Of a stretch of 64,000 nucleotides of DNA, positions 4,633 through 61,240 are shown piece by piece. The DNA comes from Pseudomonas sp. Seg1 (GTDB taxonomy: Bacteria > Pseudomonadota > Gammaproteobacteria > Pseudomonadales > Pseudomonadaceae), in NCBI RefSeq assembly GCF_018326005.1, contig NZ_AP021903.1, forward strand, positions 3,381,501-3,445,500. The letters are read 5' to 3'. Every line of letters begins with the position of its first letter. Positions within the stretch are counted from its first letter, which is position 1. The notes under the pieces were generated by a model, which saw only the letters and a program-made list of their open reading frames with translations, was not told where the DNA came from and did no database searches. Position numbers and translations under genes: made by a program.

Positions 4633-4670
4633 GGGTATTACCTGAACCTCAGCTGTTCTTTACGCAAGCC

Positions 4671-9989: not shown

Positions 9990-10000
9990 CACCGCCCCAC

Positions 10001-10222
10001 TATAGGAGTGAGCCTGCTGGAGACAGGTTTATGTCAGCCAATATCTACCGTGCTGACATACCGCCATCGCTGGCAAGCCAGCTCCCACAAGGATTTATGC
10101 CATGCCCACCCATCTTGGGCATTACTCAAAACCCTGTGGGAGCTGGCTTGCCAGCGATGAAGGCGGAACATTCAACATCATTGTTGACGCCGCCGAAGCC
10201 ATCGCGAGCAGGCTCACTCCTA
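10001..10222. repeat. Compound REP cluster of two interleaved families
   Basis: Four REP units lie in order. A forward TAGGAGTGAGCCTGCT starts near 10001. A reverse ATCGCTGGCAAGCCAGCTCC is at 10065-10084. Its forward partner is at 10135-10157 (GTGGGAGCTGGCTTGCCAGC). A reverse ATCGCGAGCAGGCTCACTCC is near 10200-10219. The outer units belong to the GAGCCTGCTCGCGA family and the inner units to the GCTGGCTTGCCAGCGAT family. Confidence 0.82.
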
Positions 10223-10275
10223 CAGCTTTTCTGGGTACAATCCGCCCCCTCCTCAACTCCCTCCAAGGAACCCAC

Positions 10276-12154: not shown

Positions 12155-12155
12155 G

Positions 12156-12728: not shown

Positions 12729-12801
12729 CCCAAATAACAAAAGCAGTGCAATTAGAAAGTACCAACACTTAACCAACTAATAAGCACGATGGAGAAACAC
12801 C

Positions 12802-13824: not shown

Positions 13825-13837
13825 TCGCGATCGAAAC

Positions 13838-13864
13838 GAAAGCCCCGGAAACGGGGCTTTTCCT
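13838..13864 (+). terminator. Intercistronic hairpin between fapC and fapD
   Basis: AAAGCCCCGGAAACGGGGCTTTT is a strong stem with a GAAA-like loop and a U-rich tail, 14 bases after the fapC stop. It probably acts as a partial terminator or 3'-stabiliser that raises fapABC over fapDEF. Confidence 0.8.
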
Positions 13865-13887
13865 CAGTCCGCAAAGGCGTATCGATC

Positions 13888-14568
13888 ATGCGTAAGACTG
13901 CCCTCATCGCTCTGCTTTGTCTGTCTGGCCTGACCCAGGCGGCGCAGATGCCCGTGGCTGCCCTTCCCGGCGGCACACTCATCTACAAGAACGTGCAAAG
14001 CATTCGTGAGCGCAAGTTTGCCGACATTGTCGAACAGAAAACCGATTTCAGCTGCGGCGCTGCTGCACTGGCCACGGTGTTACGCCAAGGCTATTGGCTC
14101 GACGTCGATGAGGAGCACATCATCAAAGGCATGCTGGTCAACGCTGACCAGGACCTTGTTCGTACTCAGGGTTTTTCCATGCTCGACATGAAGCGCTACA
14201 TAGAAAGCATCGGCATGCGCGCCAGAGGCTACAAGATTCCGCCGGAAAAACTCGACGCTGTAACAATCCCGGTGGTGGTACTGATGGAAATTCGCGGCTA
14301 CAAGCATTTCGTGGTGTTGCAACGTGCGGACAAGGATTGGGTTTACATCGGAGACCCGGTTCTGGGCCACAAACGTTACTCCCATGATGACTTTGTCAAA
14401 GGTTGGAACGGCATCGTCTTCGCCATCGTCGGCCCCGGATATGACAAGGCCAACGCCTTGCGCAGCCCGCCGACACCGCTGACGGCCAAGAACAAGCTGG
14501 ATAACTTCAACCCTGTCAAAGATGCTGAATTGATGGACTTCGGGTTCATACAGAGCGACTTCTTTTAA
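13888..14568 (+). CDS. fapD: FapD C39-family protease
   Basis: Predicted periplasmic cysteine protease of 226 residues, with a signal peptide ending near TQAAQ (residue 20). The peptidase C39 core is intact: Cys56 in DFSCGAAALATVL, His140 in GYKHFVVL and Asp156 in VYIGDP. FapD is required for Fap export and processing. It follows fapC after a hairpin and precedes fapE by 44 bases. Confidence 0.95.
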   Translation: MRKTALIALLCLSGLTQAAQMPVAALPGGTLIYKNVQSIRERKFADIVEQKTDFSCGAAALATVLRQGYWLDVDEEHIIKGMLVNADQDLVRTQGFSMLDMKRYIESIGMRARGYKIPPEKLDAVTIPVVVLMEIRGYKHFVVLQRADKDWVYIGDPVLGHKRYSHDDFVKGWNGIVFAIVGPGYDKANALRSPPTPLTAKNKLDNFNPVKDAELMDFGFIQSDFF

Positions 14569-43391: not shown

Positions 43392-46300
43392 ATGATGACC
43401 ACCTCCGTTTCTCCCCTCCTGTTTCCCGAAACCTTGAACTCGCCCGGTTTGTGGAAAGCGCTGGCCAAGACTCATCTGCTGAATCAAAACGATTTTGACT
43501 GGCTGGCCCATGTGAAGCTGGCCTCGCACACACTGCGCAATGAGCAGAAGCCGCCCATGCTCGCCCAGCGCATTCGTATCACGGCGGGCACGCAATCACC
43601 CGTCACCCTGGCGGGAAGTTTCATCCTCAGTGCCACTCCCGATGACAACGGCGCGATCCTCTACACGCCATACGACGGCATCAAGAAATACGACAGCCTG
43701 GCGTCGCTGCAAACGGCACTTGAAGAGCGGGTGAAAAAAGCTGCCGAGGAAGATGAGTTGCTGGCGTTTCTCGGTTCGCTTCAACGCCAACAACTTGTCG
43801 AGCAACCCAGCATTGCGTTGACCTACGAGACCATCGAGGGCGATGTGTTTGATGATCAGAAGGCGGCCATTCTGGCGTCTCGACAGTTGAATGCCGAGGC
43901 CATGCTGAGCGAGTTGAAACAACTGCCATCGCTCACGGCCCTGCTGGAGACCAGCCTCGACGAGTTGCTGAAGGAACATTTTCCGAACCTGCAGCAAGGG
44001 CAGACCCGCACCAGTTTCTATACGCTGGCAGACCCGAGCGTCAAGGAGACATCCGCCCGGCACTGGCACGACTCGACCAGCCTGAGTGAAGCGGTGCTGA
44101 TGCGTTACCGCCAGCAGAACTGGCCTGCCGGGCAACTGCATGAGTTTTCCAACCCGCGCCACACCCCGATCCCCGGTGATCAGGCGCTGTGGGACAACGC
44201 CCTCAAAGCCGCGTCGGGCAAGTTGTTGGTACTGCTGTTTCACGCGATGGAAAGCTATTGGGATGGCGCCAGCGCAGAGGGCTCGACTCGCCGCGTATTT
44301 TTCGCCAAGGCCCTGCTCGAACAGGCGCGTACCGAGCTGATGATCAAACGCGAAACCGGCATCATCGATGCCGCCCAATTCGCCACCCTGCACCAGATGA
44401 TTCGCCCCGCCGCTTTGCCGACCCGCCGCGCGACCATCGAAAACGTACGGCTGTGGGAATACGAGCCCAACTACGTCGAACTGGCCGGCTCGTTGATGAT
44501 CAGTTTCAGCGAGGCCTGTCTCGACACGCCAACCCTGGGTCTGCAAGTGCTCAAGGATTACCAGGACCTGAAAGACACCGTGCAGAGCAAATTCCTCGCG
44601 GCCGGCCATGAAGACGAGTTGTATGGCCTGCTGAGCCTCGAAGAACGAAAACGCTTTGTAGGCTTCGACAAGCCCCACGTGACGGGTGTGTCGATCGGCG
44701 GCGAGATTTTCGAGGTGCTGTTCGAAGCCATCATCACCAAACAGCGGCAGAACATCGAATACGCCTTGCAGGTGTTCCGCCTCAGTGATGGTGCCGTGGA
44801 TATCCATGCGCTGTTCGACAAGGCCCTCGACATACGCGCCATGATCCAGGAACGCTTGCTGGAACTTGATGCCGGCGAGCGCTGGACCACGCGACCGGTA
44901 CTGGTGGGAGTGCAACAACCGTCCGCGGTCCTCGCAGAGAAGGCCGATAACCTGGCGCGCTCCTGCACGGGCATCGAAGCGTTGCTCACCGGGTCGTTTC
45001 GCGGCCAGCCCATTGCTACAGCGGCGGCACAGCGCAGCTACCTTGAGGGCATGCAGTCACGATTGGGGCATTCACTGTATGTCGGGGTACGCGGTGAAGC
45101 CCAATTGCGCGAACTCAGCGGGTCGCTGAAGGCTGCCGAACGGGCCATTGTCGATACCGTGTTCCATTCCGATCAACCGAGCCGCCGCGAGCGACGTTCG
45201 CTCAACGGCTTTCGGCCGGATGCCTGGTCACTGAGCGTTGAACGTGAGGGCATCCAGGCACTATTGCCCTTGGCCCACTGTGTGTTGCTGACCGAACGCG
45301 GCGGGCTCGACGATGCGCACTCCGGGCGCGCGGTGCTGTGGACGCCCGCCCTCGGGCTGGAAGTGTTCGCAGGCATCGGCATTGCACGCCAAGCGCTGGC
45401 GCGACGGCTCAAGGACCCGGTTGACAGCCTGACCCTGCTGGAAAACCTTGCCCCGCAAAAGCGCCAGCCCCATCAGCGCTACACCCTGGGCGCCTTGCGC
45501 TTGATCGAGGACGATGTGCTGCCCAACCGCGCGCAATCGGGCATCGAGCACTTTCTTGCCCGCTGTGATCAAGTACGTGAGCACATGAAAGATAAAACCG
45601 GCCTGCCCGCCGCCCTCGACAAGCTGAAGAGGACGCTGATCGACACCAACCTGCCTCGCGCCATTCACCTTGCGAAAGCCATCAATCAGCAACAGACGCT
45701 ACCGGCATGGCTGGGCATGGCACCGGTCGCTGAGCAACAACTGCACCTGGAATTGCTGGAGCAGTGGCACAGCAGCGTCGTCGACAACAAGGATTACCTC
45801 AGCGGTGTCCCGACTCTGCAGGATTACGTGGACAAGACATTGCAGTCACTGCTCGACAGCCGGTTTGCCGATAGCAAGCTCGCGCCGAAAGACATCGAGA
45901 TCACCCCGAACCTGACCCTCGCCGGCCCTGCCCTCACCCTGGGCGAATTTGCCCTGAACCATGTAAATATCGCTCAAGGCACTGGCTTCAAGGTCGCGTC
46001 AAAAACCACGCAGAAATTACCGAAAGGGTTTGACCAGGCGGCGGTCAATCAACTGTTGCTGTCGCTGGAAATACCCTCGACTTTTGCCGCGCAGGTGACC
46101 GAGGCCCTGACGGGGGATTCGACCGAGGTGCAGAAACGCAAACAACGTTTTTATCGGCAGATCCCCTGGCAACTGTTGCAGCATGCCCACGCCATGAAAC
46201 TGCAACAGCGATTGTCCGGCACGGCGTTCGACCAGATCTGCCAGGTGCTGGACATGCCTGACGGCATCGCCCGCGCGACGGTCGAGGGCGCTCATGCTCT

Positions 46301-48269
46301 GGTCTCGCCGTTGTCGCTGATCAAAACAGCTGGCGCCGACGCGGTGGAAGCGTTGGGGTTGTATGTGATCGGCCCGGGCACGGGGCACAAAGGCCCGTCG
46401 GTGCTTTACACACCCTATGCCGACCAGGTGTTTCACGAATTCGAAGGCCAGACGCAACTGATCGCGGCACTGAATTCGCCGGGGCCTCTGCAGGATTTGC
46501 TGATTCGCCGGTTGCCGGCCGAGCATCAGGCGGTCTTTCGCGCATTGCTGAAGTCGAGTGTCGGCGAAACCAGTGAAATGACCCTGTCAGGCGCCGCCAT
46601 TACCGGCAATCTGTTGCACCGGTTGTTCAAGGACAACCTACAACTGTTGACGCAATTTTTGGGCTGCCAGGGGCAAAGCACGGCGCAGGGTGATTGGGAA
46701 AACGCGAAAAACCTGTTCAGCCACGGGATCAAACTGCTCTCCGGTCTGCTGCCGGGTAAATTGTCCTATCTGACGTTTCTCTGGCAGGCCTACAAGGACT
46801 TCAAGGTCTCGGCCGAAGCGCTGCAGGATCACCACTGGGCAATAGCCTTGAAAGCTTTTATCGACGGAGGGATGCAGATGATCAGTCTTGGCCGGATAGC
46901 ACTTGAGGGATCGGAAGCCTCGGCGCAGGCACCCGAGGTGGCGGTTGCGACGGCAAGGGTCAGCCGTCAGACGCCAACCACTTTGGCGACCATCACTGAA
47001 GTGACAACCAAAGCGGTCGACCTGACAAAACCACTCACGCTGCCTGTTCCACGCTGGTCAACCATCAGGCTCACGTCGCCATTGCGCACGGTGCTGCAAG
47101 TATTTGAAGCGGTAAACGTGGCACTTGAGGGTCTCAAGCGCAATGCGAAGAATGGCACCTACGAGCAGTCGCTCAGCAAGCGGATTTACAACGTTATTGC
47201 CGGCAAGGTTTATCGCGTCGAAAAACCTGGAATTGTCTGGCGCATCGTCACTGATCAAATCCAGGGGCCGTCGCTAAAAGAACAGGATAAGCGGCTGTTA
47301 CTGGCGCCGGATCCACACACGGTCCATTACGGCAAAGCCATTTCCAGACTGCACAATCGCTTCGTCGTCGAGCAAAGTCGGCGGACTGTGCTGAACATCG
47401 AAGCCAAGGGCATGGAGAATATCCGTCGCCATCATCCCGATAAAGCCCACGCCATTCAGCATGCAGTCGATATGGCGCGGTTCTATGCGTTCAACAGCCT
47501 GCACAATCTGGTTCAACTGAAAAACAACGTATCTGGTAGTCGTCTGAATGGCTTTCTGAAGAGTTTTTTCGGGGTCTCACAGATTGATAAGGTGCTGTTG
47601 GGCAAAATCAACAACGCCATCGTGCCTATCTGCAATGCCCTGGTCGATCCTGACGAAGACCTGATGAACACCGATCGCTTCATTGTCGGCTCAAATGTTT
47701 TCAAGTCATCGCTCATTGCGTTCGTGTTGATCAACGACAAGCAAAAAAATGTGCATTTCACCGAGCACTTCTTCAATCAACAGTTGGACTTGTACGAAGG
47801 TTTCTTGTCCGAGTCCTTCGATGTCAACGGACACGCGCAAGCTGCGACCCTGATCCACGAATTCGCCCATCAATTTTCCAAGGCCGAGGACATCGCCTCA
47901 CTGGAAGCGCGCCGACCGTTTTTCGATTTGATTGATCCTCTGACCCACTACGGACAGGAGATGCGCGATGACCTGGAGTCTTTCCAGAGCAAGGCGCTGT
48001 CACTGCTTACCCCCCGCGACGAGCTGTTTGCACATTGGAGCGCCAAAAAGGGCGCGTTTGTCAGTCTGGACAAGATTCGCGGAGGGGAAGTATTGACCCA
48101 GAATATTCTCAAGTTGACCCAGAGTTCGACCATCGATGAGGCACGCAACAAATTTTATGATCGAACGTCATCGGATGTACGTGCCGATGTCATCCTGCGC
48201 AACGCCGACTCGATCGCACGGCTGATTTGCGAGATGGGCCGACGGCTTGATCCGGTGCCCGTGCGCTGA
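43392..48269 (+). CDS. Giant toxin-like protein with C-terminal HExxH motif (dermonecrotic-toxin-like, DUF6543 type)
   Basis: A single protein of 1,625 residues with no signal peptide. The long N-terminal part (about 1-1150) has alternating helical and domain-like segments. It reads like the large Pseudomonas proteins annotated as dermonecrotic-toxin-like (DUF6543); this is a recollection, not a search result. LIKTAGADAVEALGLYVIGP and GPSVLYTPYADQVFHEF near residues 975-1018 echo the earlier GAILYTPYDGIKKYDSL near 86-102, hinting at an internally repeated module. The last third ends in a candidate zinc protease: HEFAH at 1489-1493, with possible third ligands Asp1515 or His1519. The 3' part is clearly AT-richer. 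No immunity-like gene follows and no secretion genes are adjacent. Confidence 0.8.
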   Translation: MMTTSVSPLLFPETLNSPGLWKALAKTHLLNQNDFDWLAHVKLASHTLRNEQKPPMLAQRIRITAGTQSPVTLAGSFILSATPDDNGAILYTPYDGIKKYDSLASLQTALEERVKKAAEEDELLAFLGSLQRQQLVEQPSIALTYETIEGDVFDDQKAAILASRQLNAEAMLSELKQLPSLTALLETSLDELLKEHFPNLQQGQTRTSFYTLADPSVKETSARHWHDSTSLSEAVLMRYRQQNWPAGQLHEFSNPRHTPIPGDQALWDNALKAASGKLLVLLFHAMESYWDGASAEGSTRRVFFAKALLEQARTELMIKRETGIIDAAQFATLHQMIRPAALPTRRATIENVRLWEYEPNYVELAGSLMISFSEACLDTPTLGLQVLKDYQDLKDTVQSKFLAAGHEDELYGLLSLEERKRFVGFDKPHVTGVSIGGEIFEVLFEAIITKQRQNIEYALQVFRLSDGAVDIHALFDKALDIRAMIQERLLELDAGERWTTRPVLVGVQQPSAVLAEKADNLARSCTGIEALLTGSFRGQPIATAAAQRSYLEGMQSRLGHSLYVGVRGEAQLRELSGSLKAAERAIVDTVFHSDQPSRRERRSLNGFRPDAWSLSVEREGIQALLPLAHCVLLTERGGLDDAHSGRAVLWTPALGLEVFAGIGIARQALARRLKDPVDSLTLLENLAPQKRQPHQRYTLGALRLIEDDVLPNRAQSGIEHFLARCDQVREHMKDKTGLPAALDKLKRTLIDTNLPRAIHLAKAINQQQTLPAWLGMAPVAEQQLHLELLEQWHSSVVDNKDYLSGVPTLQDYVDKTLQSLLDSRFADSKLAPKDIEITPNLTLAGPALTLGEFALNHVNIAQGTGFKVASKTTQKLPKGFDQAAVNQLLLSLEIPSTFAAQVTEALTGDSTEVQKRKQRFYRQIPWQLLQHAHAMKLQQRLSGTAFDQICQVLDMPDGIARATVEGAHALVSPLSLIKTAGADAVEALGLYVIGPGTGHKGPSVLYTPYADQVFHEFEGQTQLIAALNSPGPLQDLLIRRLPAEHQAVFRALLKSSVGETSEMTLSGAAITGNLLHRLFKDNLQLLTQFLGCQGQSTAQGDWENAKNLFSHGIKLLSGLLPGKLSYLTFLWQAYKDFKVSAEALQDHHWAIALKAFIDGGMQMISLGRIALEGSEASAQAPEVAVATARVSRQTPTTLATITEVTTKAVDLTKPLTLPVPRWSTIRLTSPLRTVLQVFEAVNVALEGLKRNAKNGTYEQSLSKRIYNVIAGKVYRVEKPGIVWRIVTDQIQGPSLKEQDKRLLLAPDPHTVHYGKAISRLHNRFVVEQSRRTVLNIEAKGMENIRRHHPDKAHAIQHAVDMARFYAFNSLHNLVQLKNNVSGSRLNGFLKSFFGVSQIDKVLLGKINNAIVPICNALVDPDEDLMNTDRFIVGSNVFKSSLIAFVLINDKQKNVHFTEHFFNQQLDLYEGFLSESFDVNGHAQAATLIHEFAHQFSKAEDIASLEARRPFFDLIDPLTHYGQEMRDDLESFQSKALSLLTPRDELFAHWSAKKGAFVSLDKIRGGEVLTQNILKLTQSSTIDEARNKFYDRTSSDVRADVILRNADSIARLICEMGRRLDPVPVR

Positions 48270-49807: not shown

Positions 49808-52153
49808 TTACTGCGCGGCGACTTTCCCCGCCTTGTCCAACGCCCCGCGAATGGTCTGCACCTGATAGTGCGGATCCGCCTGGATCTGCTGCTCGGTGAA
49901 TGGCATCACACTCCACTGCTTCTTCGAGAAGGCCTCGGTCTGATCCCGCGCATACTTCGATGCTGGATCGCTGGACAGCGAGAATGCCAACAGCCCCTGC
50001 GCGTGCGGGCCCTTTTCATCGAACGTCACCACTTGCAGGTAGCTGGTGCCGCTGACCACTTCAAGTTTGCCGTCTTCGCGTGGCACGCTCTGGATGGCGT
50101 TGTAGATCCCCAGCGTGCCCGGCCCGCCATGAATCGGCGTCTGCTGCCCGCCGCTGCTGACCACCTGGATATCGCCCCAACGGGTTTTCGGCGTAAGCCC
50201 CATCTTGCCGGCCAGTTCAGCCGATGCCAGCATCGCCGCGCGCAATGCCTTGGCCACCTCTGGCTGCTCGATCGCCAGACCACGCGGCGTGTGTTGCGGA
50301 TCTTTTGCATCGAAGGCAACGCGCCAGACATCGGCGGAGCCCTGCATGGCCTGCATGATGTTCTGGAAGTGCACCAGGCCTGCGCCCGAATCCAGATTGG
50401 CCCGACCGTCCCACGCCTTGAGGCTCGCGCATACCGGTTTCAGTGCTTGCGCATCAGCCCCCAGATCGGCGGCGCAGAACTTCAACAGATCCGGTACGAC
50501 CTGAGTCGCCAGATACACCTGATCATCCATCACCATCTGCTGCAAATCTTTCACCGCCAGCGGACCTTTTTTGCTCAGGCCCGCCAGACGATCGAGGGCA
50601 AAGCGCGAACGCAGGCCCAACGGTTGACCGTCCTGACTGATCACTGGCGAGAAACCGGTCAGCGGTTGCGCCGGGTTGGCCAGCCATGCGGAATCGTTGG
50701 AGTGCTGGACGAAGTCCTTGCGCAACAGTTGCGGCAATTGGCTGGACGCATAGATGCCCTTCTGCGCCGCTTGCGGATCAATGTCCCAGGCGCAGGCGCT
50801 GTTGGAGCCGTCCAGCACGATCATCTGTGTGCCGATGCGCGGGTCGCTGCACCGGGCAAGTTTTTCGCGGCTGACGTTCGGCACCACCGACAGGTTCATG
50901 TACAGCGTCTGCCCCTTGTCATCGACGGCGAGCGTGTTGACCCATGGAATGCCCTGGATCTTGTGCACCGAATCCTGCAGCGCCTGAAGCGTCGGGGCCT
51001 GATTCATCGCATACCACTGCGTGAGGACGCGATCGTTGTCGAGGTTGGCATCGCGCAGGCTGTAGGCGAACTGATTGTCCCAGTCGAGCTTGCCCGGCCA
51101 TTGCACGATCGGGCCGAACTTAGAGCTGTAAACGTCGCGGGCCACCGGCACCACTTGCCCGTCAGCCTGTTTGACCTGCACGGTAACGGTCTGCTTGTTC
51201 ATGGGCACGGATTGACCGTCGAGCAGATAATGCGTCGGGTCTTTCGGATCGAGTTGCAGGCGATACAGGGTGAAGTGCTTCGATGAGTCGACCGTGTGCG
51301 TCCAGGCCAGATGCTGGTTGAAGCCGATGTTGATCATCGGCAGGCCCGGCAAGGCCGCGCCCATCACGTCGAGTTTGCCCGGGATGGTCAGGTGCATTTG
51401 ATAGAAGCGCATGCCGCCGACCCACGGAAAGTGCGGGTTGGCCAAGAGCATGCCGCGACCGTTGAACGAGCGTTCGCTGCCCACCGCCACCGCATTGCTG
51501 CCACGATCCAGGGCAAAACGCTGCTGACGGGCGTCGGCCATCTGGTAGGCGTGCTTATCGTGTTCGACGCGAGCCGTAGCCTGCGGAGGTGTCGCACCCG
51601 CCAGTGCTTCGGCGAATTGGCCGACACCGCCCTCGACCAGCAGACGGCGGGTCAGTTTGACCAGATCTTCCGGCGCAATGTCGCGTACCCACTCGCCCTG
51701 ACATTGCTGCGGCAACCCCTGCGGACGACGCTCGGCGAGATAACGGTTGTAGCCAGCGGCGTAACCTTCGACCAGATCCCGCACCTGTGCCGGCTGGGCT
51801 TGCCAGAACGCATTGACCGCTTCAGGCGTATTGAGCCAGTTGAAGAAGACGTCGCTGACGCGGTTTTCGCGTTCTTCCACGGTCAATTGATCCGGACCGA
51901 AGTAACGTGAGCGCTGGCCATTGACTGTAACAATCTCGTTGGCCAACAGGCACAGGTTGTCCTGTGCGTACGCATAACCGATGCCGAAACCCAGGCCGCG
52001 CTCATCTTCGGCGCGGATATGCGGCACACCAAAACCGGTACGACGAATCTCGGCGCTGGCATCAACGGCCGAGGTCAATGCATGAGCCGACGGGCTCAGC
52101 CCGAAAAACAGACCGGCAAGGGTCAGCCCGGTTAATTGCCTGGAAATAATCAC
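49808..52153 (-). CDS. pvdQ: Acyl-homoserine lactone acylase PvdQ
   Basis: Periplasmic Ntn-hydrolase of 781 residues that removes the fatty-acid chain from pyoverdine precursors and also cleaves long-chain acyl-homoserine lactones. The signal peptide ends at AHA. Segments match PvdQ as I remember it: [33 protein letters not shown], and the autoprocessing site [14 protein letters not shown] with nucleophile Ser219. The later [18 protein letters not shown] and [18 protein letters not shown] also fit. I chose the GTG at 52153 because AGGAG lies six bases upstream. A PvdS-type promoter sits about 120 bases upstream. It is not next to other pyoverdine biosynthesis genes in this window. Confidence 0.93.
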
Positions 52154-52457
52154 GCTCGCTCCTGATCGAAATGCCGAAGAGCGGATCTGGCGCTGCCACA
52201 CGAAGACGATATGACGGGCAATGGATCCGCTCTGGAAACACCCACGCGTCCACGCGCAATGAGCCTGTCCTGAAAACGAACCCGAAGAAAAAATATTTAG
52301 TGCGGCGCAGGGCGTTTTTTGCCCGGCATTACAAGGTGAGGACGAATTTCCGACAAATTTTCTACATTTTTTCTTTCATGATTTGTCGAGCTGATACGTC
52401 TTGTTTAGAGAACGCAAAAAAACCTTTCCCGATCAGGCTCTGAAAAGGAGTAATCGC
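52154..52457. other. Divergent control region of pvdQ and a Fur-like gene
   Basis: A 304-base region, AT-rich in the middle. It holds the PvdS-type promoter for pvdQ (52276-52299, minus strand) and a hairpin-like GGGCGTTTTTTGCCC at about 52310-52325. Further T-rich DNA precedes the plus-strand gene at 52458. No clear Fur box (GATAAT triplets) was seen. Confidence 0.55.
52276..52299 (-). promoter_or_regulatory. PvdS-type iron-starvation promoter of pvdQ
   Basis: On the minus strand TAAAT is followed after exactly 16 bases by CGT, the published PvdS recognition pattern, about 120 bases before the pvdQ start. Spacing and both elements match perfectly. Confidence 0.75.
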
Positions 52458-52835
52458 ATGTACAACTCGCAACTACCAACGGACGGTAGCCAGGCCCCAC
52501 AAGGAGTTTCCATGAGCCCCCACGCGAGCGATTTCGGGCAACGCGTCGAGCGTCACGGTAACGAACGCATCCGGCTGTTGCTGAAAAGTTTCGGTCTGCG
52601 CACCAGCCTGATTCGCCTGAAAGTCATCGACGCGCTGCTGGTCGCAGCACAAAGCGAGCGCCGTCTGGGCGTGCGTGGCGTCCACAGCCAATTGCTCGAC
52701 CTGGATATTCCGCTGTCCTTCCTCAGTGTGCGCGAAGTCCTCAAGCGTCTGTGCGCCGAAGGCGTGATCACCTTCAATGCGGACAAGAGCTACAGCCTGC
52801 ATCCACAGGCTGCTGCCGTGCTCAACAACGACTGA
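52458..52835 (+). CDS. Fur-like winged-helix regulator lacking metal sites
   Basis: A 125-residue protein whose centre matches the Fur DNA-binding fold: ERIRLLLKSFGLRTSLIRLKVIDALL, then HSQLLDLDIPLSFLSVREVLKRLCAEGVI. The HHDH metal-binding and CxxC zinc motifs of real Fur proteins are absent, and the dimerisation domain is missing. AAAGGAG precedes the ATG at 52458. It is divergent from pvdQ with about 300 bases between, so a link to iron regulation is possible. Similar proteins are often annotated as Fe2+/Zn2+ uptake regulators without evidence. Confidence 0.8.
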   Translation: MYNSQLPTDGSQAPQGVSMSPHASDFGQRVERHGNERIRLLLKSFGLRTSLIRLKVIDALLVAAQSERRLGVRGVHSQLLDLDIPLSFLSVREVLKRLCAEGVITFNADKSYSLHPQAAAVLNND

Positions 52836-53408: not shown

Positions 53409-53442
53409 AACAATGCCCGCTTACAGCGGGCATTGTTTTTTG
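53409..53442 (+). terminator. Terminator upstream of the lux-like operon
   Basis: AACAATGCCCGC pairs with GCGGGCATTGTT around TTACA and is followed by a T-run. It ends the small lipoprotein unit and insulates the next operon. Confidence 0.9.
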
Positions 53443-53517
53443 CGCAACTTGCCCACGACGCATCCTGGATCCAATAAACACGATGCAAGCATTTGAAATT
53501 TAATGTCGTAGCAAACA

Positions 53518-53546
53518 ACTAGGTCACCCACACCACACCCCCTAGT
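53518..53546 (+). promoter_or_regulatory. Inverted repeat before the lux-like operon, possible operator
   Basis: ACTAGG and CCTAGT are inverted, 17 bases apart, about 40 bases before the MFS gene. A regulator dimer could bind here. No promoter consensus nearby is convincing. Confidence 0.35.
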
Positions 53547-53586
53547 CTCTGCAAGCTTCCTGAAAACTAACTGACAAGGATGTTTT

Positions 53587-54834
53587 ATGCAGAGAACACT
53601 TATAACTATCGGCCCTCGTAAACTGATCGGATTCTGTTTGGCCCTGACCGCTTTCGAGCTGCTGACTTATATGGCCAGCGACTTGATCATGCCGGCGATG
53701 TTGAATGTCACTACTGATTTACAAGCCGATATCCGCCATGTCCCCAATGCGTTCAATCTTTATTTGCTGGGGGGCGTCTGCCTGCAATGGTTGATGGGGC
53801 CGCTGTCCGATCATTGGGGCCGACGACCGATGTTATTGATCGGTTGCGCAGTGTTCGGTGTGGCTTGTGCTGCCACATTCGTCACTCACAGCATTGAACT
53901 GTTCAATCTGCTGCGACTGATTCAAGGCGCAGGCCTGGGGTTCGTCGTTGCCGTCAGTTATCCGGCCCTGCAGGAAGTGTTCCGCGAGGCCGATGCCGTG
54001 CGACTGATGGCCCTGCTGGGCAACGTCGCTCTGTTATCGCCATTGCTCGGTCCATTGCTCGGCAGCCTGCTGCTGGAATGGCTGACCTGGCGCGAGTTGT
54101 TTCTGGCTCTCGGTCTCGCTGCAGCGGCGGTGTGGCTGGGGCTCTACGCTTGCATGCCAGAGACCGTGGGCGTTGTGCGCCATGATGGCCGGCAACAGGC
54201 GCAAGTGCGTTTTTCCCTGCGGCAGACGTGGCAGCGCTACCTGGCATTGTTTGGCAATCGGCGGTTCCTTTGGGCGTGCCTCGCATTGGGGCTGATGAGC
54301 CTGCCGCTGATTGCCTGGATCGGCCTGGCACCGCTATTGCTGATCCAGTTGCTGGGCCTGACGCCGCTGGAGTACGGGCTGTGGCAGATCCCGATTTTCT
54401 CGGCCGTCATCGCCGGCAATCTGATCTTCGACCGCTTGCTGGTCACGCATTCGTTGCCCCAGTTGATTCAACTGGGGCAGTGGCCATTTTGCCTGGGCCT
54501 GATGGGGCTGATTGGCTGCGCGCTACTGAGGACAGGCCTGGAACCCGTGGTCGCCAGCCTGGCGCTTTACGCCGTCGGGCTGGGCATGAGCAATGCCGCA
54601 CTGTATCGAGTGGCCCTGTTTTGCACCGATGACAGTAAAGGCCTGGTCTCGGCCATGATCGGCATGATTTCGATTGCCGTGATGGGCGTCGGTGGAACAC
54701 TCATTGCCACCCTCAGCGGCGGCACACACCTTGAACTTTTCGCGCTCTTGTCCGCCTTCGGCGGCCTGATGTGCCTGCCCTTTCTGCACGGAATCCTGCA
54801 GGACGGGAACAACAATTCCACCTCACTTCAATAA
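53587..54834 (+). CDS. MFS exporter, DHA/MdfA-like
   Basis: Drug:H+ antiporter-type major facilitator of 415 residues with 12 hydrophobic segments. The marks are GPLSDHWGRRPMLLIG near residue 72 (motif A), LIQGAGLGFVVAVSYPALQEVF near 112, and ALLGNVALLSPLLGPLLGSLL near 140 (motif C-like). The opening resembles MdfA/MdtM (FELLTYMASDLIMPAM, with the acidic residue in helix 1). It is the first gene of a five-gene operon, ten bases before the LuxE-like gene. Export of the operon's product or protection from it is the natural inference. Confidence 0.88.
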   Translation: MQRTLITIGPRKLIGFCLALTAFELLTYMASDLIMPAMLNVTTDLQADIRHVPNAFNLYLLGGVCLQWLMGPLSDHWGRRPMLLIGCAVFGVACAATFVTHSIELFNLLRLIQGAGLGFVVAVSYPALQEVFREADAVRLMALLGNVALLSPLLGPLLGSLLLEWLTWRELFLALGLAAAAVWLGLYACMPETVGVVRHDGRQQAQVRFSLRQTWQRYLALFGNRRFLWACLALGLMSLPLIAWIGLAPLLLIQLLGLTPLEYGLWQIPIFSAVIAGNLIFDRLLVTHSLPQLIQLGQWPFCLGLMGLIGCALLRTGLEPVVASLALYAVGLGMSNAALYRVALFCTDDSKGLVSAMIGMISIAVMGVGGTLIATLSGGTHLELFALLSAFGGLMCLPFLHGILQDGNNNSTSLQ

Positions 54835-54844
54835 AGGAATATTG

Positions 54845-55975
54845 ATGACTCACTTACCCGCGAGCGACGCGCTCTGCGCGTTGCCAAGGCCTTATTGCCC
54901 GGATTCCGTGCCCTGTGGTCTGTTTGACCAGGCCATGGCCGAAATCAGCCGGTTTCACTGCCGGCACACACCCGGTTATGAAGGCTGGCTGAACGCCAAC
55001 GGCCTCACGGTAGACGATCTGGACAGCCTCGATGACTGGTCACGCCTGCCGCCAATCTTCGCCAATTTTTTCAAGCAGCGACTGCTGCTCAGCACCACCG
55101 GCGAAGACGCGCTGGAACTGACCTCTTCCGGCACCAGCGGTCAGCAAAGCCGCATGCGCTATGACGCGCGCAGTCTGGCAGCGGCGCAGTTCATGGTCGC
55201 GCAGATATTCCGGCACTACGGCTGGGACACCCCGGACACGCCCTGCAACTACTTGCTGCTGAGTTACGAGCCGCAAGGCCGGATCACCCTGGGCACCTCA
55301 TTCACTGACCAGTTTCTCTGTGGTTTTGCCCCCGCCAACCGCGTGGTGTATGCCCTGCGCAATACCGGTGGCGGTCACCAATTCGATGTGTTCGGCGTGA
55401 TCCAGGCCTTGCAGGCATTCGCCGAAGAAGGGCTGCCCGTGCGCATCCTCGGCTTCCCGGCATTTCTCTGGCAGACCCTGCAACTAATGCAGGCCACCGG
55501 CGCTGCGGATCTTCAGTTGCCCGCCGGCTCGCTGGCTTTTTTTGGTGGTGGCTGGAAAACCCAGGCCGCACAAGAAATTCCCCGACAGCAGTTATACGCA
55601 CGCATCCACCGGCAACTGGGCATTGAAAAGGTCCGTTGTCGCGATGGCTACGGCGCTGTCGAGCACGCGGTGCCTTATATCGAATGTGACCACCATCACT
55701 TCCATGTCCCGGTTTATTCAAAGGTACTGGTGCGCAATCCGGCGGACTTTTCCCTGCAGCCTTATGGCCAGCAAGGCCTGCTCGGTTTTGTCTCGCCATA
55801 TATCTCGTCGAGTCCCGGGCATGCGGTGGTGATGAGTGATCTGGCGACGCTGCACCCTGGCGCAAGCTGCGGTTGTGGATTGGCCAGCGACTGGTTTGAA
55901 CTGCATGGCCGCGCGGGCACCACGCCGGGCAGAAGCTGTGCGATGGCAGCTTCCGAACTGCTCGGAGGTCGATGA
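54845..55975 (+). CDS. LuxE-family acyl-protein synthetase-like ligase
   Basis: AMP-forming acid ligase of 376 residues in the LuxE branch. LuxE activates a fatty acid as acyl-AMP and passes it to a cysteine and then to the LuxC reductase. Seen here are the phosphate loop LTSSGTSGQ near residue 95, and CRDGYGAVEHAVPYIECDHHHFHVP near 275, with YGxxE as the adenylate motif. The late LGFVSPYISSSPG and SCGCGLASDWFELHGRAG follow. AAGGAA precedes the ATG at 54845. It overlaps no gene, and the LuxC fusion begins two bases after its stop. The luciferase genes luxAB are absent. Confidence 0.87.
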   Translation: MTHLPASDALCALPRPYCPDSVPCGLFDQAMAEISRFHCRHTPGYEGWLNANGLTVDDLDSLDDWSRLPPIFANFFKQRLLLSTTGEDALELTSSGTSGQQSRMRYDARSLAAAQFMVAQIFRHYGWDTPDTPCNYLLLSYEPQGRITLGTSFTDQFLCGFAPANRVVYALRNTGGGHQFDVFGVIQALQAFAEEGLPVRILGFPAFLWQTLQLMQATGAADLQLPAGSLAFFGGGWKTQAAQEIPRQQLYARIHRQLGIEKVRCRDGYGAVEHAVPYIECDHHHFHVPVYSKVLVRNPADFSLQPYGQQGLLGFVSPYISSSPGHAVVMSDLATLHPGASCGCGLASDWFELHGRAGTTPGRSCAMAASELLGGR

Positions 55976-55976
55976 C

Positions 55977-58379
55977 ATGTACTTGATCAACGGACAGCAA
56001 CACGACGTCTGCAACTTCGACAATGCACTCGAAAACCTTGAGGCGCAGCTGGCGCAACAGTTGAGTACGCCGCTGGACAGCCACACGGTCATTGAAGCCG
56101 CCGCGCATTTTTCGCTAAACCTGCGCAGCGCTGACATAACGCTGCCACTCACTATCGAGCAACGGCAGGCGTTGATCGACTTCTGCGAACCGCAGGCGTT
56201 GCGCCGCAAGATGCAGCGCGAACTCGGCACGCAACCCGGCTCATTGCGGCGATTCGATTATCGTCAGGCCCGATTCGAATGCTGGAGCCCGCTTGGCCTG
56301 GTGGTGCATATCACGCCGGGCAACGCGCCCTTGCTGGCATTTTGCGCGGTGCTGGAAAGTCTGCTGGCCGGCAACGTCAACTGGTTGCGGCCCAGCAGCA
56401 GCGATCAGGGTCTGACCGCGAGCCTGCTTGGCGCTTTGCTGCAATGCGACCCGAGCGGTCAACTCGCCCGTTACGTTGCCGTACTGCCGGTCAGCACTGC
56501 GCAGATCGCGCGCCTGTGCAAACGGGCCAACGGGGTCGCAGCCTGGGGCGGTGAAGCGGCCCTGCAAGCCATTCGCCAACAGATCCCGACCGGCTGCCGC
56601 TGGATCGATTGGGGCCACCGCATCAGTTTCGTTTATCTGACGCCTGACGCCGCCACCCCACAAGGGCTGGATGCCGTGGCGGATGAAGTCTGCCGGCTGG
56701 ATCAGCAAGCCTGCTCCAGTCCGCAATGGTTACTGGTCGACAGCGACGATCCGCAGGTTCTGCGGGACATCGGCGAACGGCTGACGGCCGCCTTCGAACG
56801 CCGCGCCGGACAATGGCCGGCGTTGTTGCCTACGTCGCAAGAAGCCGCGCAAATCACTACGCACACACAAATGGCGCGGCTGGCGCAGAGTTTCGCTGAA
56901 CAAACCGGACATATCTGGAGTGCACCGGGCTGGCGAATCATCTGGGCGCACAACCGTCAACTGACGCCTTCGCCGCTGTTTCGCAGCGTACTGCTGCATC
57001 CCGTGCCCCGCGCCCTGATCACCGAGACGCTGTTGCCGTGGCGCAATGTCCTGCAAAGTTGCGCGCTGCTGTGTGGCGCAGCGCAGACCGGCGAGCTGGC
57101 ACGCACGCTGATCGGTGCGGGCGTCACGCGAATCGCCCCGGTCAGCAGCATTCATGACGGCTATGACGGTGAGCCACATGACGGCGTCTACGCCTTGCAA
57201 CGGCTGAGCCGACGTGTGTCCGTCAGCCTGCCCGCCGATGTCCTGCCGAACCATGCCACGCTTGATCGCACGTCATTGCCCGCGACGCAATCCGGGCAGC
57301 CGCTCATGGACAAGGCTGCTTTCGTCACCCAACCATTCAACGCCGCTGCGCGGCTATATTTCCGTTCCGGAGGCAGCAGCGGTACTCCGGCGTTATCGGC
57401 TTACAGCTATGCCGATTTCCATCGACAAATGCGTGCTACCGCCGACGGACTGTTCGCCGCCGGCCTCGACCCGGCTCGGGATCGAGTGATGAACCTGTTC
57501 TTCTGCGGCGGCTTGTACGGCGGCTTCCTCAGTTTTGCCAAAGTGCTTGAGTTGCTGGACATCCCGCACCTGCCGATGGGCGCTCCGGCCGATGACGATT
57601 ACCGCGAAATCGCCGAAATGATCGTCAGTCAGCGCGTGACCGTGTTGATTGGCATGCCGAGCACCGTGCATCGCCTGTTCCTCAACGAACGACAACGGTT
57701 GCAGGCCTATGGCGGGATCGACAAGGTTTTTCTCGGCGGCGAACACCTCAGTACACAAAGTCGCGAGCTGCTGCACAGCTGTGGCGTGCCAAGCATCCGC
57801 TCGGCGATTTACGGCAGTGTCGACGCAGGCCCGCTTGGCCATGCTTGCCAAGCCACCGACGATGGCGTCTTCCATTTGCTGAGTGACACCCAGCACCTGG
57901 AAATTGTCGGCCTCGACGTCGATGAACCCGTCACGGGCAATCAAGTCGGCCGCTTGCTGTTCACGTCGATCGCACGCGAGGCGCAAAACGTTCGGCGTTA
58001 CGAGGTGGGCGACACGGGACGCTGGATTTCCGGCCCCTGCGCCTGCGGACTCACGTCGCCGCGCTTCGAACTGTTGCAACGGCACGGCAAGCTGATTCGC
58101 ATCGGCTCTGACTTCATCTCGTTGAGCGAACTGGAGGAACACCTGCAGGTGCCGTTCCAGTTGCTGCTCGGCCATGCCCCCGATGGACTGGAACGCATGT
58201 GCCTGCGAATCGGGATTGACGCGGCAGACGCACGATTGCGGTTGTCCCGGTACCCGACTCTGGCGACGCTGATCGAAACCGGACTATTGCATCTGGACGT
58301 TGACGTCTGTGCCGTCGAGCACTTCACCCGCAACAGACACAGCGGCAAGACGCCGATCCTGATTGATTCACGTAGTTGA
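55977..58379 (+). CDS. LuxC acyl reductase fused to a PaaK/LuxE-like ligase
   Basis: A two-domain protein of 800 residues. The first part (about 1-400) is a LuxC-type NADPH-dependent acyl-CoA/acyl-enzyme reductase. Its catalytic Cys246 lies in DQQACSSPQ, and PLGLVVHITPGNAPLLAF near 103 and NVNWLRPSSSDQGL near 131 are LuxC marks. The second part (about 435-790) is a phenylacetate-CoA-ligase-like adenylating domain with phosphate loop SGGSSGTP at 464-471 and SIRSAIYGSVDAGPLG near 607. The C-terminal HGKLIRIGSDFISLSELE follows. The ATG at 55977 has GGAGG nine bases upstream. I know LuxC and PaaK as separate proteins; this joining is unusual. Activation and reduction of one acid to an aldehyde is the likely activity. 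Confidence 0.87.
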   Translation: MYLINGQQHDVCNFDNALENLEAQLAQQLSTPLDSHTVIEAAAHFSLNLRSADITLPLTIEQRQALIDFCEPQALRRKMQRELGTQPGSLRRFDYRQARFECWSPLGLVVHITPGNAPLLAFCAVLESLLAGNVNWLRPSSSDQGLTASLLGALLQCDPSGQLARYVAVLPVSTAQIARLCKRANGVAAWGGEAALQAIRQQIPTGCRWIDWGHRISFVYLTPDAATPQGLDAVADEVCRLDQQACSSPQWLLVDSDDPQVLRDIGERLTAAFERRAGQWPALLPTSQEAAQITTHTQMARLAQSFAEQTGHIWSAPGWRIIWAHNRQLTPSPLFRSVLLHPVPRALITETLLPWRNVLQSCALLCGAAQTGELARTLIGAGVTRIAPVSSIHDGYDGEPHDGVYALQRLSRRVSVSLPADVLPNHATLDRTSLPATQSGQPLMDKAAFVTQPFNAAARLYFRSGGSSGTPALSAYSYADFHRQMRATADGLFAAGLDPARDRVMNLFFCGGLYGGFLSFAKVLELLDIPHLPMGAPADDDYREIAEMIVSQRVTVLIGMPSTVHRLFLNERQRLQAYGGIDKVFLGGEHLSTQSRELLHSCGVPSIRSAIYGSVDAGPLGHACQATDDGVFHLLSDTQHLEIVGLDVDEPVTGNQVGRLLFTSIAREAQNVRRYEVGDTGRWISGPCACGLTSPRFELLQRHGKLIRIGSDFISLSELEEHLQVPFQLLLGHAPDGLERMCLRIGIDAADARLRLSRYPTLATLIETGLLHLDVDVCAVEHFTRNRHSGKTPILIDSRS

Positions 58380-58421
58380 TGCCGTGAGTTCGATCAGACC
58401 ACAACAAGAATGGTGAACATT

Positions 58422-59732
58422 ATGAAAACTTCCGAACAACTGAACGAGTTGATCAACTACGCTCGTCAACATTCGCGCTATTACCGCGCACACTTTTCTG
58501 GCGTCTCGAAACAAACATCAACATTGACCGAACTGCCGCTGATTGAACCTGCTGAATATTGGCAAAACAGTCAGACGCTAAATAAATGGCCGGTACTCAC
58601 CGGCGCTGTGGCACAGGCTCTGATATTTAAAACCGGCGGTTCAACCAGCGCCGGGAAGCTCTCTGTTTATACGCAAAATGAATGGCGTTTATTGGTCAGT
58701 GAATTCGGCAAAAGTCTGAGTTCACAATTCCAGCCCGGTGATCGCGTCGCCAATCTATTCTTTGCCGGTGACCTGTATGCCAGCTTCCTGTTCGTCCACG
58801 ACGCACTGGCCCATGTTGACGTAGAGATTACCGAGTTCCCCTTTACCGGCAATGTCGACTCCGCCGTTCTGGCGCAATCCATCGTGCAGCATGAGATCAA
58901 TGTACTGGCGGGCGTGCCGGCACATCTGCTGACCTTCGCGGCGTGGCTCAATCGTCAGGAACAGACCCTGCCTGAGGTCGACACCCTGCTTTACGGCGGG
59001 GAAAGTCTGTTCGCGTCGCAACGCCAACAACTCGAACTGGCATTTCCCAACGCGCGCATTGCCTCTGTCGGCTATGCCAGTGTCGATGCCGGTTTCATCG
59101 GTAGCAGTCAGCGCGACTGCGCCGAAGGCGAGCATCGAATGCATGCCGAGCACACCTTGGTGGAAATCATCGACGAACATTCCGGTGCCGTGATCGATGC
59201 CTGTGATCACACCGGTTTGCTGGTGATCACCAGTCTGCACCGTCGGTTGATGCCGCTGATTCGCTACCCGGTCGGCGACCGCGCCTGCTGGCGAGAGCCC
59301 GCAGGCAGCGCCCGGCGCAAGTTCGCGCTCAAGGGCCGCAGCGCTGACAGCCAACGGGTTCGGCTGGGGATTTTGTCGCTGATGCCGCAGGAAATCGGTG
59401 CGCTGATCCAGCACACCGCCAACAGTGACGACTGGCAACTGCTGATCGAACAGGTCGGGCACACGGATGTGCTGAGCCTGAAATGGGTGGCGACCGCGCA
59501 ATCCCCCGCCGTGGCCGACGTCAACCGGGATCTGGAGGCGGGATTGGTTGAACAGTACCCGCTGATTGCGCAACTGCGGGCAGACCATCTGCTGAATCTG
59601 CGAATCGAGTGCTGCCCCCATGGGGATCTGTCACGCCACGCCCGCTCGGGCAAATGCATGCGCGTGGTAGATCTGCGCTGCTATGAACACAGGCACAAGG
59701 AGGTGCCCTATGCCACCGCTGATTCTGCGTAA
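58422..59732 (+). CDS. PaaK/LuxE-like adenylate-forming ligase
   Basis: Acid-activating enzyme of 436 residues similar to the C-terminal half of the preceding fusion. Shared segments are the phosphate loop FKTGGSTSAGK near residue 73, FQPGDRVANLFFAGDLYASFLF, VLAGVPAHLLTFA, LLYGGESLFASQRQ and ASVGYASVDAGFIGSSQ. The C-terminal ALKGRSADSQRVRLGILS replaces the usual GK-lysine region, so catalysis may be changed. I prefer the ATG at 58422 (GGTGA upstream) over 58410. It ends 23 bases inside the next gene. It probably arose by duplication of the fused ligase domain. Confidence 0.83.
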   Translation: MKTSEQLNELINYARQHSRYYRAHFSGVSKQTSTLTELPLIEPAEYWQNSQTLNKWPVLTGAVAQALIFKTGGSTSAGKLSVYTQNEWRLLVSEFGKSLSSQFQPGDRVANLFFAGDLYASFLFVHDALAHVDVEITEFPFTGNVDSAVLAQSIVQHEINVLAGVPAHLLTFAAWLNRQEQTLPEVDTLLYGGESLFASQRQQLELAFPNARIASVGYASVDAGFIGSSQRDCAEGEHRMHAEHTLVEIIDEHSGAVIDACDHTGLLVITSLHRRLMPLIRYPVGDRACWREPAGSARRKFALKGRSADSQRVRLGILSLMPQEIGALIQHTANSDDWQLLIEQVGHTDVLSLKWVATAQSPAVADVNRDLEAGLVEQYPLIAQLRADHLLNLRIECCPHGDLSRHARSGKCMRVVDLRCYEHRHKEVPYATADSA

Positions 59733-60654
59733 CTACCGTGACACCGATGCAACGGCCGTCAGCCAATTGTTTCGCAAGGTGTACGGCGACCTTTATGTGC
59801 AGCCCCATGTGTATCTGCCGCACATGATCAGTCAGAACCACGCCGACAAGCGCTGGCACTCGCTGGTTGCAGTGGTCGGTGAGGAAATTTGCGGGCACGC
59901 CACGCTGTTCCGCGAGCCAAACGCCAGCACGGCCGAACTGGCCCTGTGTGTGGTTCACCCGGATACCCGGGGACAAAATATCGCCACACGTCTGGGCCAG
60001 CATTTATTGACCCACGCACAGGCATTGGGCTGTCAGAACGTCGTGATCAAACAGGTCACCCACCATCCGTACACGCAGCGGATGGCAATCAACCTCGGCT
60101 TTCATAACACCGGATTATTGCCGGACTACGTCCCTTCACCGTTCGATAGCCCGGTGCCGGAATCAATTGTCCTGGGATGTTATGCCATCGACGGCTACCG
60201 ACGCCCCTTGCCCCGGCAAACCTGGCCTGCCGGTTACCGGGATTTCATGCAGCAGTTAGGTCGGGTGTTCGGTACGAAGAAGCAAACATTTCGATGGCAC
60301 GGCGCGGCCGTTCAGCTGGAAAAGCACGCTAATCGTTATGACATGCGCCTGAAAAAACTGCGGCCCGGGCTGCTCAAACAATTACGCGAACTGCCTCGGC
60401 AATGGCTGATTTCGCTTCAACTGCGACTGTCGCGGCACTTTGCCTGGGACCTGACCCGGCTGAACGCGATTGGCTTTTTCTTTACCGGGCTGGCGCCCAT
60501 GGAAGGTAAAGGGGGGGGATGGCTGGCGCTGTTTCACCGGGGGTTCCGGTCACGGCAGCTGACATTGCCCTGTCCGCACATGCAGCACCTGCATGATCAG
60601 GCCCAACAGGAACTCGCCGCTCACTTGAGCGAGAGCCCGCCACCGCAGGTTTGA
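59710..60654 (+). CDS. GNAT-family acyltransferase with a C-terminal extension
   Basis: A 314-residue protein. The first 155 or so residues are a GNAT domain (LILRNYRDTDATAVSQLFRKV, then LALCVVHPDTRGQNIATRLGQHL with the CoA loop RGQNIA). The remaining 160 are an unrecognised basic region (KLRPGLLKQLRELPRQWLISLQ, then GIGFFFTGLAPMEGKGGG-like). AAGGAGG lies nine bases upstream of the ATG at 59710, inside the preceding gene, so it is coupled to it. An acyl transfer onto an amine as the last step of the pathway is plausible. Confidence 0.82.
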   Translation: MPPLILRNYRDTDATAVSQLFRKVYGDLYVQPHVYLPHMISQNHADKRWHSLVAVVGEEICGHATLFREPNASTAELALCVVHPDTRGQNIATRLGQHLLTHAQALGCQNVVIKQVTHHPYTQRMAINLGFHNTGLLPDYVPSPFDSPVPESIVLGCYAIDGYRRPLPRQTWPAGYRDFMQQLGRVFGTKKQTFRWHGAAVQLEKHANRYDMRLKKLRPGLLKQLRELPRQWLISLQLRLSRHFAWDLTRLNAIGFFFTGLAPMEGKGGGWLALFHRGFRSRQLTLPCPHMQHLHDQAQQELAAHLSESPPPQV

Positions 60655-60712: not shown

Positions 60713-61240
60713 TCAAGCCTTGGCTTTAACGCCTTGGTCGATCGGCTTCGGCGCGTTGCCTTCACCATACGTCTTGAGATTCTGCAGGACGTAGATGGCT
60801 TTTTTGTACTCAGGGATCAGCGCTTTGCCGTAAGCGTTGCCATTGAGGCCATTGTTCTGGATCGCATCAAGCTGAGTCGCGAAATATTCCAGTGCGTTGA
60901 ATTTGACATCAATGTCTTTGGTCACGCCGAAACGGTCAAACTTGTCGCCGGCGTTCATCAGCGTAAAAGATGTGATCTCGGAAATCAGCCCGCGGCTACG
61001 CAGCATGGCGGCAAGGTTGCCCATCTGTTTGACCGAAACGTTCGCAGGATCGAAGCCCTTGATGTTCTTGCGCAGGCCTTGCTTGTCCATTTCGGCGGTA
61101 TTGATAGCGTTGGGATCATTCCCCACCATGGTGAGCATTTGCTGCACCTTGACGCTTTGAGCCACCTGTTTCTTCGCGCCAGTGTTACGCACCATCACGC
61201 CAGCCTTGCTCTCCCAACCGCCGACTATGCCGATCGTCAT
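60713..61240 (-). CDS. Protein of unknown function, 175 residues
   Basis: Cytosolic or exported without a classical signal: no hydrophobic N-terminal segment. It is mostly helical, with Gly, Asn and Lys-rich stretches (MLTMVGNDPNAINTAEMDKQ, AAMLRSRGLISEITSFTLMN, YFATQLDAIQNNGLNGNAYG) and a Pro/Lys tail (KPIDQGVKAKA). No family recognised. GGGAG precedes the start. It is convergent with the lux-like operon and divergent from a chemoreceptor gene. Confidence 0.78.
   Translation of the reverse strand: MTIGIVGGWESKAGVMVRNTGAKKQVAQSVKVQQMLTMVGNDPNAINTAEMDKQGLRKNIKGFDPANVSVKQMGNLAAMLRSRGLISEITSFTLMNAGDKFDRFGVTKDIDVKFNALEYFATQLDAIQNNGLNGNAYGKALIPEYKKAIYVLQNLKTYGEGNAPKPIDQGVKAKA

Follow-up and report, generated by a model that had tools for sequence, protein, structure and literature searches.

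A conserved five-gene Pseudomonas operon with LuxE and a LuxC–PaaK fusion: a candidate carrier-free pathway for a small exported compound

Introduction

What do relatives of the lux fatty acid reductase genes do in a Pseudomonas chromosome in which no luciferase is found? The question is raised by a 64,000-nucleotide stretch of Pseudomonas sp. Seg1 (contig NZ_AP021903.1, positions 3,381,501 to 3,445,500; hereafter the window), part of a 6.6 Mb host genome assembled as one contig whose nearest matches are Pseudomonas. Between positions 53587 and 60654, the window carries five head-to-tail genes on the plus strand, encoding a major facilitator superfamily (MFS) pump, a LuxE-type acyl-protein synthetase, a LuxC reductase joined to a PaaK-type adenylation domain in one chain, a second ligase of the PaaK type, and a GCN5-related N-acetyltransferase (GNAT) family acyltransferase. 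In lux operons, LuxE is the partner of LuxC. We propose, with a probability of roughly 0.6, that the five genes constitute one co-transcribed, carrier-protein-free pathway for a small exported compound.

Results

The five genes described in a first-pass annotation of this DNA are all present at the positions and on the strand that it gave. Its estimate of 2–42 bases for the intergenic gaps was roughly right, but is replaced, once start sites are revised, by spacings of 7 (or 10), 1 and 30 bases followed by a 23-base overlap. Conservation places the start of the fusion at the ATG at 55977, one base past the LuxE stop codon, rather than at the GTG at 55836; the resulting length of 800 residues is the commonest among the relatives listed. 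For the GNAT gene, the conserved start is at 59710 rather than 59683. With starts chosen nearest to the expected position, the gap between LuxE and LuxC is exactly one base in 72 of 80 named loci. This compact spacing argues for co-transcription of the five genes.

The named loci are the best 80 of 137 confirmed in a genome scan and comprise 65 from Pseudomonas and 15 from other genera (10 Xenorhabdus, 2 Rugamonas, 1 Parachitinimonas, and 2 enterobacterial metagenome-assembled genomes); some are also among the genomes that were fetched separately. The order MFS-LuxE-LuxC.PaaK-PaaK-GNAT is kept in 65/65 Pseudomonas loci. The four-gene core LuxE-LuxC.PaaK-PaaK-GNAT is kept in 15/15 loci from the other genera, and hence in all 80, with the window-type MFS gene preceding it in 4 of those 15. 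A search for the same gene order in other genomes, which the first-pass annotation had suggested, thus found it both within Pseudomonas and beyond, and because the order recurs across the named loci, the operon is not a chance array.

At finer scale, all eight related genomes examined have the five genes in the same slot, adjoining the same small upstream gene; a penicillin-acylase-like gene lies upstream and a chemoreceptor gene downstream in seven of the eight each. The four-gene core is also present in 11/11 further Pseudomonas regions, fragmented in three. Six of these regions represent a second lineage that lacks the window-type pump, and its core is set among other genes in the five loci listed. 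A tree built from 28 LuxC.PaaK proteins groups three members of the second lineage with the Parachitinimonas protein and a Salmonella plasmid copy (support 98/96), and the window lineage is separate (99/99); this topology suggests two acquisitions. At an E-value (E) threshold of 1e-50, the fusion is found in 74 of 398 Pseudomonas genomes, the window's included, or about one in five; in two of them, the gene gives two separate matches. At E 1e-30, by comparison, 369 genomes drawn from the class gave the fusion in the window's own genome only. A protein search with the Pseudomonas fusion returned 1229 proteins at E 0.001, distant matches included, of which the best 120 were listed.

Fragmented copies were seen among the relatives. 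The fusion gene is in two pieces in G302 and G315 (L147 and L148), and the MFS and second ligase genes are each in two pieces in G129 (L150), patterns suggestive of decay or sequencing error. In L025 (G034), one of the eight related genomes above, the GNAT gene is in two pieces and flanking genes are broken as well, possibly through sequencing error.

The operon genes are under purifying selection. The ratio of nonsynonymous to synonymous substitution rates (dN/dS) ranges from 0.045 to 0.266 across nine genome pairs (44 gene comparisons), values that are rough since dS is near 1 in many. The ratio is lowest for LuxE in eight of the nine pairs and highest for the second ligase or the GNAT in all nine. 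One relative, G011 (L160), has no operon, although it retains the small upstream gene, the chemoreceptor and the acylase at 95%, 97% and 89% identity, respectively. At about positions 4600–4960 of that locus, a stretch matches the GNAT's final 43 residues at 79%, preceded by a weak match; because this 3' remnant stays, the unit was lost from G011 by deletion. That the window lineage acquired the operon by recent mobile insertion was rejected, given the GNAT remnant in operon-less G011 and the shared slot in most relatives.

Domain and structure searches bear out the gene identities of the first-pass annotation, together with its tally of three acid-activating domains, one reductase, one GNAT and one exporter. 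LuxE matches PF04443 (72 bits), and the host genome has one such protein. A profile search of solved structures returned a single match for it, chain E of the Photobacterium LuxC-LuxE fatty acid reductase (7xc6_E, E 1.2e-23). Cys366 of LuxE aligns with the C-terminal cysteine of that chain and is invariant in 21/21 rows of the alignment, as well as in 6/6 rows of an alignment with Salmonella and Streptomyces among them; by its role in lux LuxE, we take it to be the likely acyl acceptor.

The N-terminal part of the fusion is a LuxC domain (PF05893, 356 bits). Genome-wide, a single LuxC match is strong (358.7 bits); a second, of 26.8 bits, lies just over the cut-off of 21. A profile search of solved structures placed chain 7xc6_A as the relative of the LuxC domain (E 9.6e-18) at about 20% identity, with Cys246, in the motif QQACSSPQ, aligned to the DQQAC motif of that chain; Cys246 is invariant in 21/21 rows and in 11/11 with Salmonella and Streptomyces included. 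The C-terminal part is AMP-binding and PaaK-like, with a P-loop-like FRSGGSSG and a Lys791 that is invariant, Salmonella and Streptomyces rows included. The second ligase likewise retains an invariant Lys415 in the relatives aligned. Presumably, Cys246, Lys791, Lys415 and Cys366 are the catalytic residues.

Both PaaK-type assignments combine sub-threshold Pfam and NCBIfam matches with structure searches. For the fused domain, PF00501 scores 22 bits against a cut-off of 29.9, and NCBIfam PaaK-type models reach E 5e-19 and weaker, all below their cut-offs; for the second ligase, PF00501 scores 24 bits, also sub-cut-off, and the NCBIfam PaaK-type models reach E 1e-34 and weaker. Profile searches of solved structures place PaaK1 (2y27, 1.1e-16) level with 4r1l (1.4e-16) for the second ligase, and ClxA (9s3l, 1.3e-19) ahead of 4r1l (2e-16) for the fused domain. 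With a single sequence as query, 4r1l came first and ClxA second among the ligase chains. Foldseek, queried with the model of the whole fusion, ranked 7xc6_A at the top, followed by 4r1l and PaaK1; ClxA came 22nd. The assignment to PaaK-type ligases is secure. For the fused domain, an aromatic substrate is only possible, and the case for ClxA as its plain nearest relative is weakened.

The fusion raises an alternative: that LuxC.PaaK acts alone as an aryl carboxylic acid reductase, comparable to the two-protein GriC/GriD pair of the grixazone pathway, with LuxE, the second ligase and the GNAT performing a separate acylation and a modified aromatic aldehyde or alcohol as the product. We regard this as unlikely. 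GriD is LuxC-like, and the GriH-type synthase that makes 3-amino-4-hydroxybenzoate (3,4-AHBA) belongs to PF01959, the family of 3,4-AHBA-synthase-like proteins. The AMP-binding protein GriC and the reductase GriD jointly convert an aryl acid to the aldehyde (excerpts of PMC10179220); they are separate proteins, encoded in a larger cluster that includes 3,4-AHBA synthesis, whereas the window holds both domains in one chain. Furthermore, ClxA, the nearest match of the fused domain by profile, adenylates 3-amino-4-hydroxybenzoate according to the relevant section of PMC12519233, against which stands its failure to rank first in the other two comparisons. A search of the host genome for PF01959 gave no match, with the control search positive in 3 of 14 genomes, all archaea; because this gene was not found in the genome, 3,4-AHBA is unlikely as the acid.

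The MFS protein matches MFS_1 (107 bits) in Pfam, and its nearest NCBIfam model is the MdfA family, at 322.6 bits under a model cut-off of 439. The GNAT matches PF00583 (45 bits) and yields a good structure model, with a predicted local distance difference test score (pLDDT) of 93, in which the first 160–170 residues form the GNAT domain. Fold-search rows with this model cover residues 2–172, leaving the C-terminal part without assignment; as the rows span only those residues, their lack beyond does not support a new fold. The fold neighbours include phosphinothricin, tabtoxin and ArsN acetyltransferases, and MdfA-type pumps, by their family name, expel drugs. Both features would suit a detoxification or self-protection cassette in which the GNAT and the pump inactivate and expel an outside compound that the ligases and reductase degrade, an explanation to which we assign very little probability.

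The absence of luxA and luxB from the locus, remarked upon in the first-pass annotation, extends to the genome as a whole, where luxAB-like genes that might serve the set from elsewhere were sought and not found: none of seven luciferase-family stretches reaches the LuxA model (best 74 bits versus 600) or the LuxB model (53 versus 500), and two of the seven are alkanesulfonate monooxygenases by NCBIfam. A LuxD thioesterase is not among the five genes, the rest of the genome not having been searched for one. No carrier (T) domain was detected in the five proteins at E 0.001.

A LuxC/LuxE pair apart from luciferase, which the first-pass annotation had treated as unusual, is itself not rare. In a survey of the phylum covering 398 genomes, 24 of 29 LuxE loci have a LuxC-like match in their flanks, luciferase not having been searched for in those genomes; a LuxE gene placed immediately ahead of LuxC nonetheless departs from the gene order of lux operons. 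The 24 leave out L190, in which only the ligase part matched. Among the 29, L191 belongs to the window's family (60% LuxE identity). At 9038–14204 of another locus, L193, a LuxE-LuxC pair is followed by apparent ATP-binding cassette transporter genes, according to visual inspection of the translations.

Flagellin glycosylation islands also contain the pair, and a role in decorating a cell-surface glycan or flagellin, as proposed there, would be a further explanation for the operon. Islands of Aeromonas and Enterobacteriaceae carry LuxE and LuxC with AMP-dependent or CoA ligases in one cluster, which the papers relate to fatty acid synthesis and not to light (excerpts of PMC7874193 and PMC4875605). 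The same excerpts place LuxE and LuxC among glycosyltransferases and acyl carrier protein and mention no LuxC-PaaK fusion. We find this explanation improbable, given that: i) the immediate flanks of the operon, in the window and in most relatives, consist of genes for a penicillin-acylase-like enzyme, a chemoreceptor and small proteins of unknown family, and neither a pse gene nor one for a glycosyltransferase or acyl carrier protein was recognised there; ii) elsewhere, open reading frame lists and annotation place the unit among unrelated genes; and iii) a drug-type exporter belongs to the unit in the window lineage. Taken together, a LuxE–LuxC neighbourhood that is not part of a lux operon is ordinary, and the novelty lies in the fusion and the conserved gene set.

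Copies of the unit occur on plasmids. A translated plasmid search with the fusion matched 45 records, six of them covering at least 80%; four of these six were examined, and one of the remaining two is from the same organism as one examined. The conjugative IncF plasmid CP054717.1 of Salmonella enterica (L196, 8467–14630) carries the four-gene core with only an MFS remnant upstream. Megablast with this plasmid copy gave no near match in E. coli genomes. The other three records are linear plasmids of Streptomyces or Streptantibioticus, all with the order PaaK-MFS-GNAT-LuxE-LuxC.PaaK. In NBC_00158, the annotation lists PaaK, MFS, GNAT, acyl-protein synthase and acyl-CoA reductase back to back, and Pfam agrees; tblastn places the same five genes in the same order on the other two.

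Relative to the window, LuxE of NBC_00158 is 50% identical, the fusion 43% and the second ligase 37%. These three are common by descent, and they are the only ones demonstrably shared; near-copies of the unit recur in bacteria as distant as Streptomyces. That LuxE is the most conserved between phyla speaks for an aldehyde-forming core that stays constant and an acyl part that varies; since LuxE is LuxC's partner in lux, it also points to LuxE feeding LuxC, contrary to a self-contained aryl reductase. With the Streptomyces fusion as query, a protein search gave 951 proteins at E 0.001, distant matches included; those named among the best 120 are from Streptomyces and one Kitasatospora, mostly annotated as 'acyl-CoA reductase'. 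A phage origin was rejected, a search of 50,697 records having given one match over 48% of the query at 28% identity.

Discussion

A model for the putative pathway emerges, in which we infer all reactions, the order of steps and the substrates from the protein families. LuxE would adenylate an acid and take the acyl group onto Cys366, by analogy with lux LuxE, then pass it to Cys246 of LuxC, where reduction with NAD(P)H would yield an aldehyde, as the LuxC-LuxE complex suggests. The fused PaaK domain may adenylate an acid, possibly aromatic, and either feed LuxC or directly make an amide or ester like its relative ClxA. The second ligase would activate another acid as acyl-AMP or acyl-CoA, the GNAT would transfer an acyl group to an amine, and an amide or ester could be formed by the GNAT, the ligases or both. 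The MFS pump would export the product, protect the producer, or do both.

Several observations weigh against this model. Three activating domains face a single reductase, which leaves two of them without a clear role. The hint as to the substrate of the fused domain is weak because ClxA was first in one of three comparisons only, and the structure model of the fusion is modest (pLDDT 72, predicted template modelling score 0.45), so that the way in which LuxC and PaaK dock was not deduced from it. A window-type MFS gene is not found 5' of the core in 11 of the 15 loci outside Pseudomonas or in the six Pseudomonas loci of the second lineage, and for this reason the window-type pump does not appear essential to the core. 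The Streptomyces GNAT (E 0.51) and MFS protein (E 6.6) do not significantly resemble their window counterparts by BLASTP; they may have joined the set anciently and diverged strongly, or independently. The fusion is missing at E 1e-50 from 324 of the 398 Pseudomonas genomes, and some relatives have one operon gene in pieces.

More tentatively, and at somewhat worse than even odds, the LuxE/LuxC.PaaK/PaaK core with a GNAT and an exporter could define an undescribed class of carrier-free pathways in Pseudomonas, Xenorhabdus, other proteobacteria and Streptomyces. Here, one reductase fed by two activators would yield an exported aldehyde-derived amide serving as a signal or antibiotic; LuxE and LuxC.PaaK would be constant, and the second ligase, GNAT and exporter would vary and set the structure of each analogue.

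Comparison with known systems delimits the proposed pathway. The Photobacterium system of 7xc6 shares homologous LuxE and LuxC with conserved cysteines; the window differs in that no luciferase is found, LuxC carries a PaaK domain and is distant in sequence, and an additional ligase, GNAT and pump are present. Nonribosomal peptide synthetase (NRPS)-like carboxylic acid reductases employ a reductase of another family and need a carrier domain, which the window's five proteins lack. Their A-T-R architecture nonetheless achieves the same overall acid-to-aldehyde reaction (abstract of PMC9605436). PaaK ligases of the ClxA/NatL2 type resemble the fused domain in sequence and fold but carry no reductase in the same chain; from aminohydroxybenzoates, ClxA makes amides and esters via acyl-AMP, as described in part of PMC12519233.

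The first-pass annotation recognised no described pathway in this gene set, and we likewise found no description of the fusion or the set in open-access papers, subscription papers and patents lying outside that coverage. Three candidates from the literature were rejected: the Vfm quorum-sensing cluster of Dickeya, whose ligases are stand-alone NRPS-type adenylation proteins and for which LuxE and LuxC go unmentioned in the excerpts of PMC9306890; the solanimycin cluster, where the 'LuxE' match is an author name in the matching portion of PMC10204066; and the proteome of P. fluorescens ITEM 17298, in which the table entries seen in PMC7326052 are a generic 'fatty acyl-CoA reductase' and GNAT with no link to the window genes. 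The fusion is carried by about one in five of the Pseudomonas genomes examined, yet no product for it was found in that literature. The carrier-free, five-gene unit is small enough for transfer to a laboratory host, and such work would test both the recruitment of a lux-type acid reductase for chemistry other than light and the manner in which a LuxC-fused PaaK ligase and LuxE share one reductase.

Other features of the locus

Table 1. Positions in the window of the five operon genes, the leader, and neighbouring genes
Feature	Coordinates	Strand	Remarks
MFS exporter, MdfA/CraA-like	53587..54834	+	Assigned by Pfam/NCBIfam
LuxE-type acyl-protein synthetase (PF04443)	54842..55975	+	Start TTG 54842 or ATG 54845; invariant Cys366
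LuxC (residues ~1-430) fused to PaaK-type adenylation domain (~440-800)	55977..58379	+	Cys246 and Lys791 invariant
Second PaaK-type ligase	58410..59732	+	Invariant Lys415 near C-terminus
GNAT acyltransferase	59710..60654	+	C-terminal ~150 residues without Pfam match; reading frame could begin at 59683
Leader 5' of MFS gene	53440..53586	+	CTA..TCTCTG element
Protein with ToxA_N domain	43392-48269	+	1625 residues
Penicillin-amidase family enzyme	49808-52201	-	PF01804
Small conserved protein	52401-52835	+	~140 residues
Protein 3' of operon	60713-61240	-	175 residues

The CTA..TCTCTG element of the leader lies about 45 bases 5' of the MFS start and recurs in close relatives; it may act as a promoter. 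A sigma-70 scan identified no promoter in the leader region (2.4 matches expected), and an Rfam scan of 52–62 kb returned nothing at gathering score.

Among the neighbouring genes, the penicillin-amidase family enzyme (470 bits) adjoins the operon in most Pseudomonas relatives. The small protein 5' of the operon is without a Pfam or NCBIfam match and has matches in 27 of 57 genomes, its own included; the 175-residue protein, also without a Pfam or NCBIfam match, lies 3' of the operon in many of the operon-bearing relatives. The 1625-residue protein further upstream bears a ToxA_N domain (dermonecrotic toxin N-terminal domain, 75 bits).

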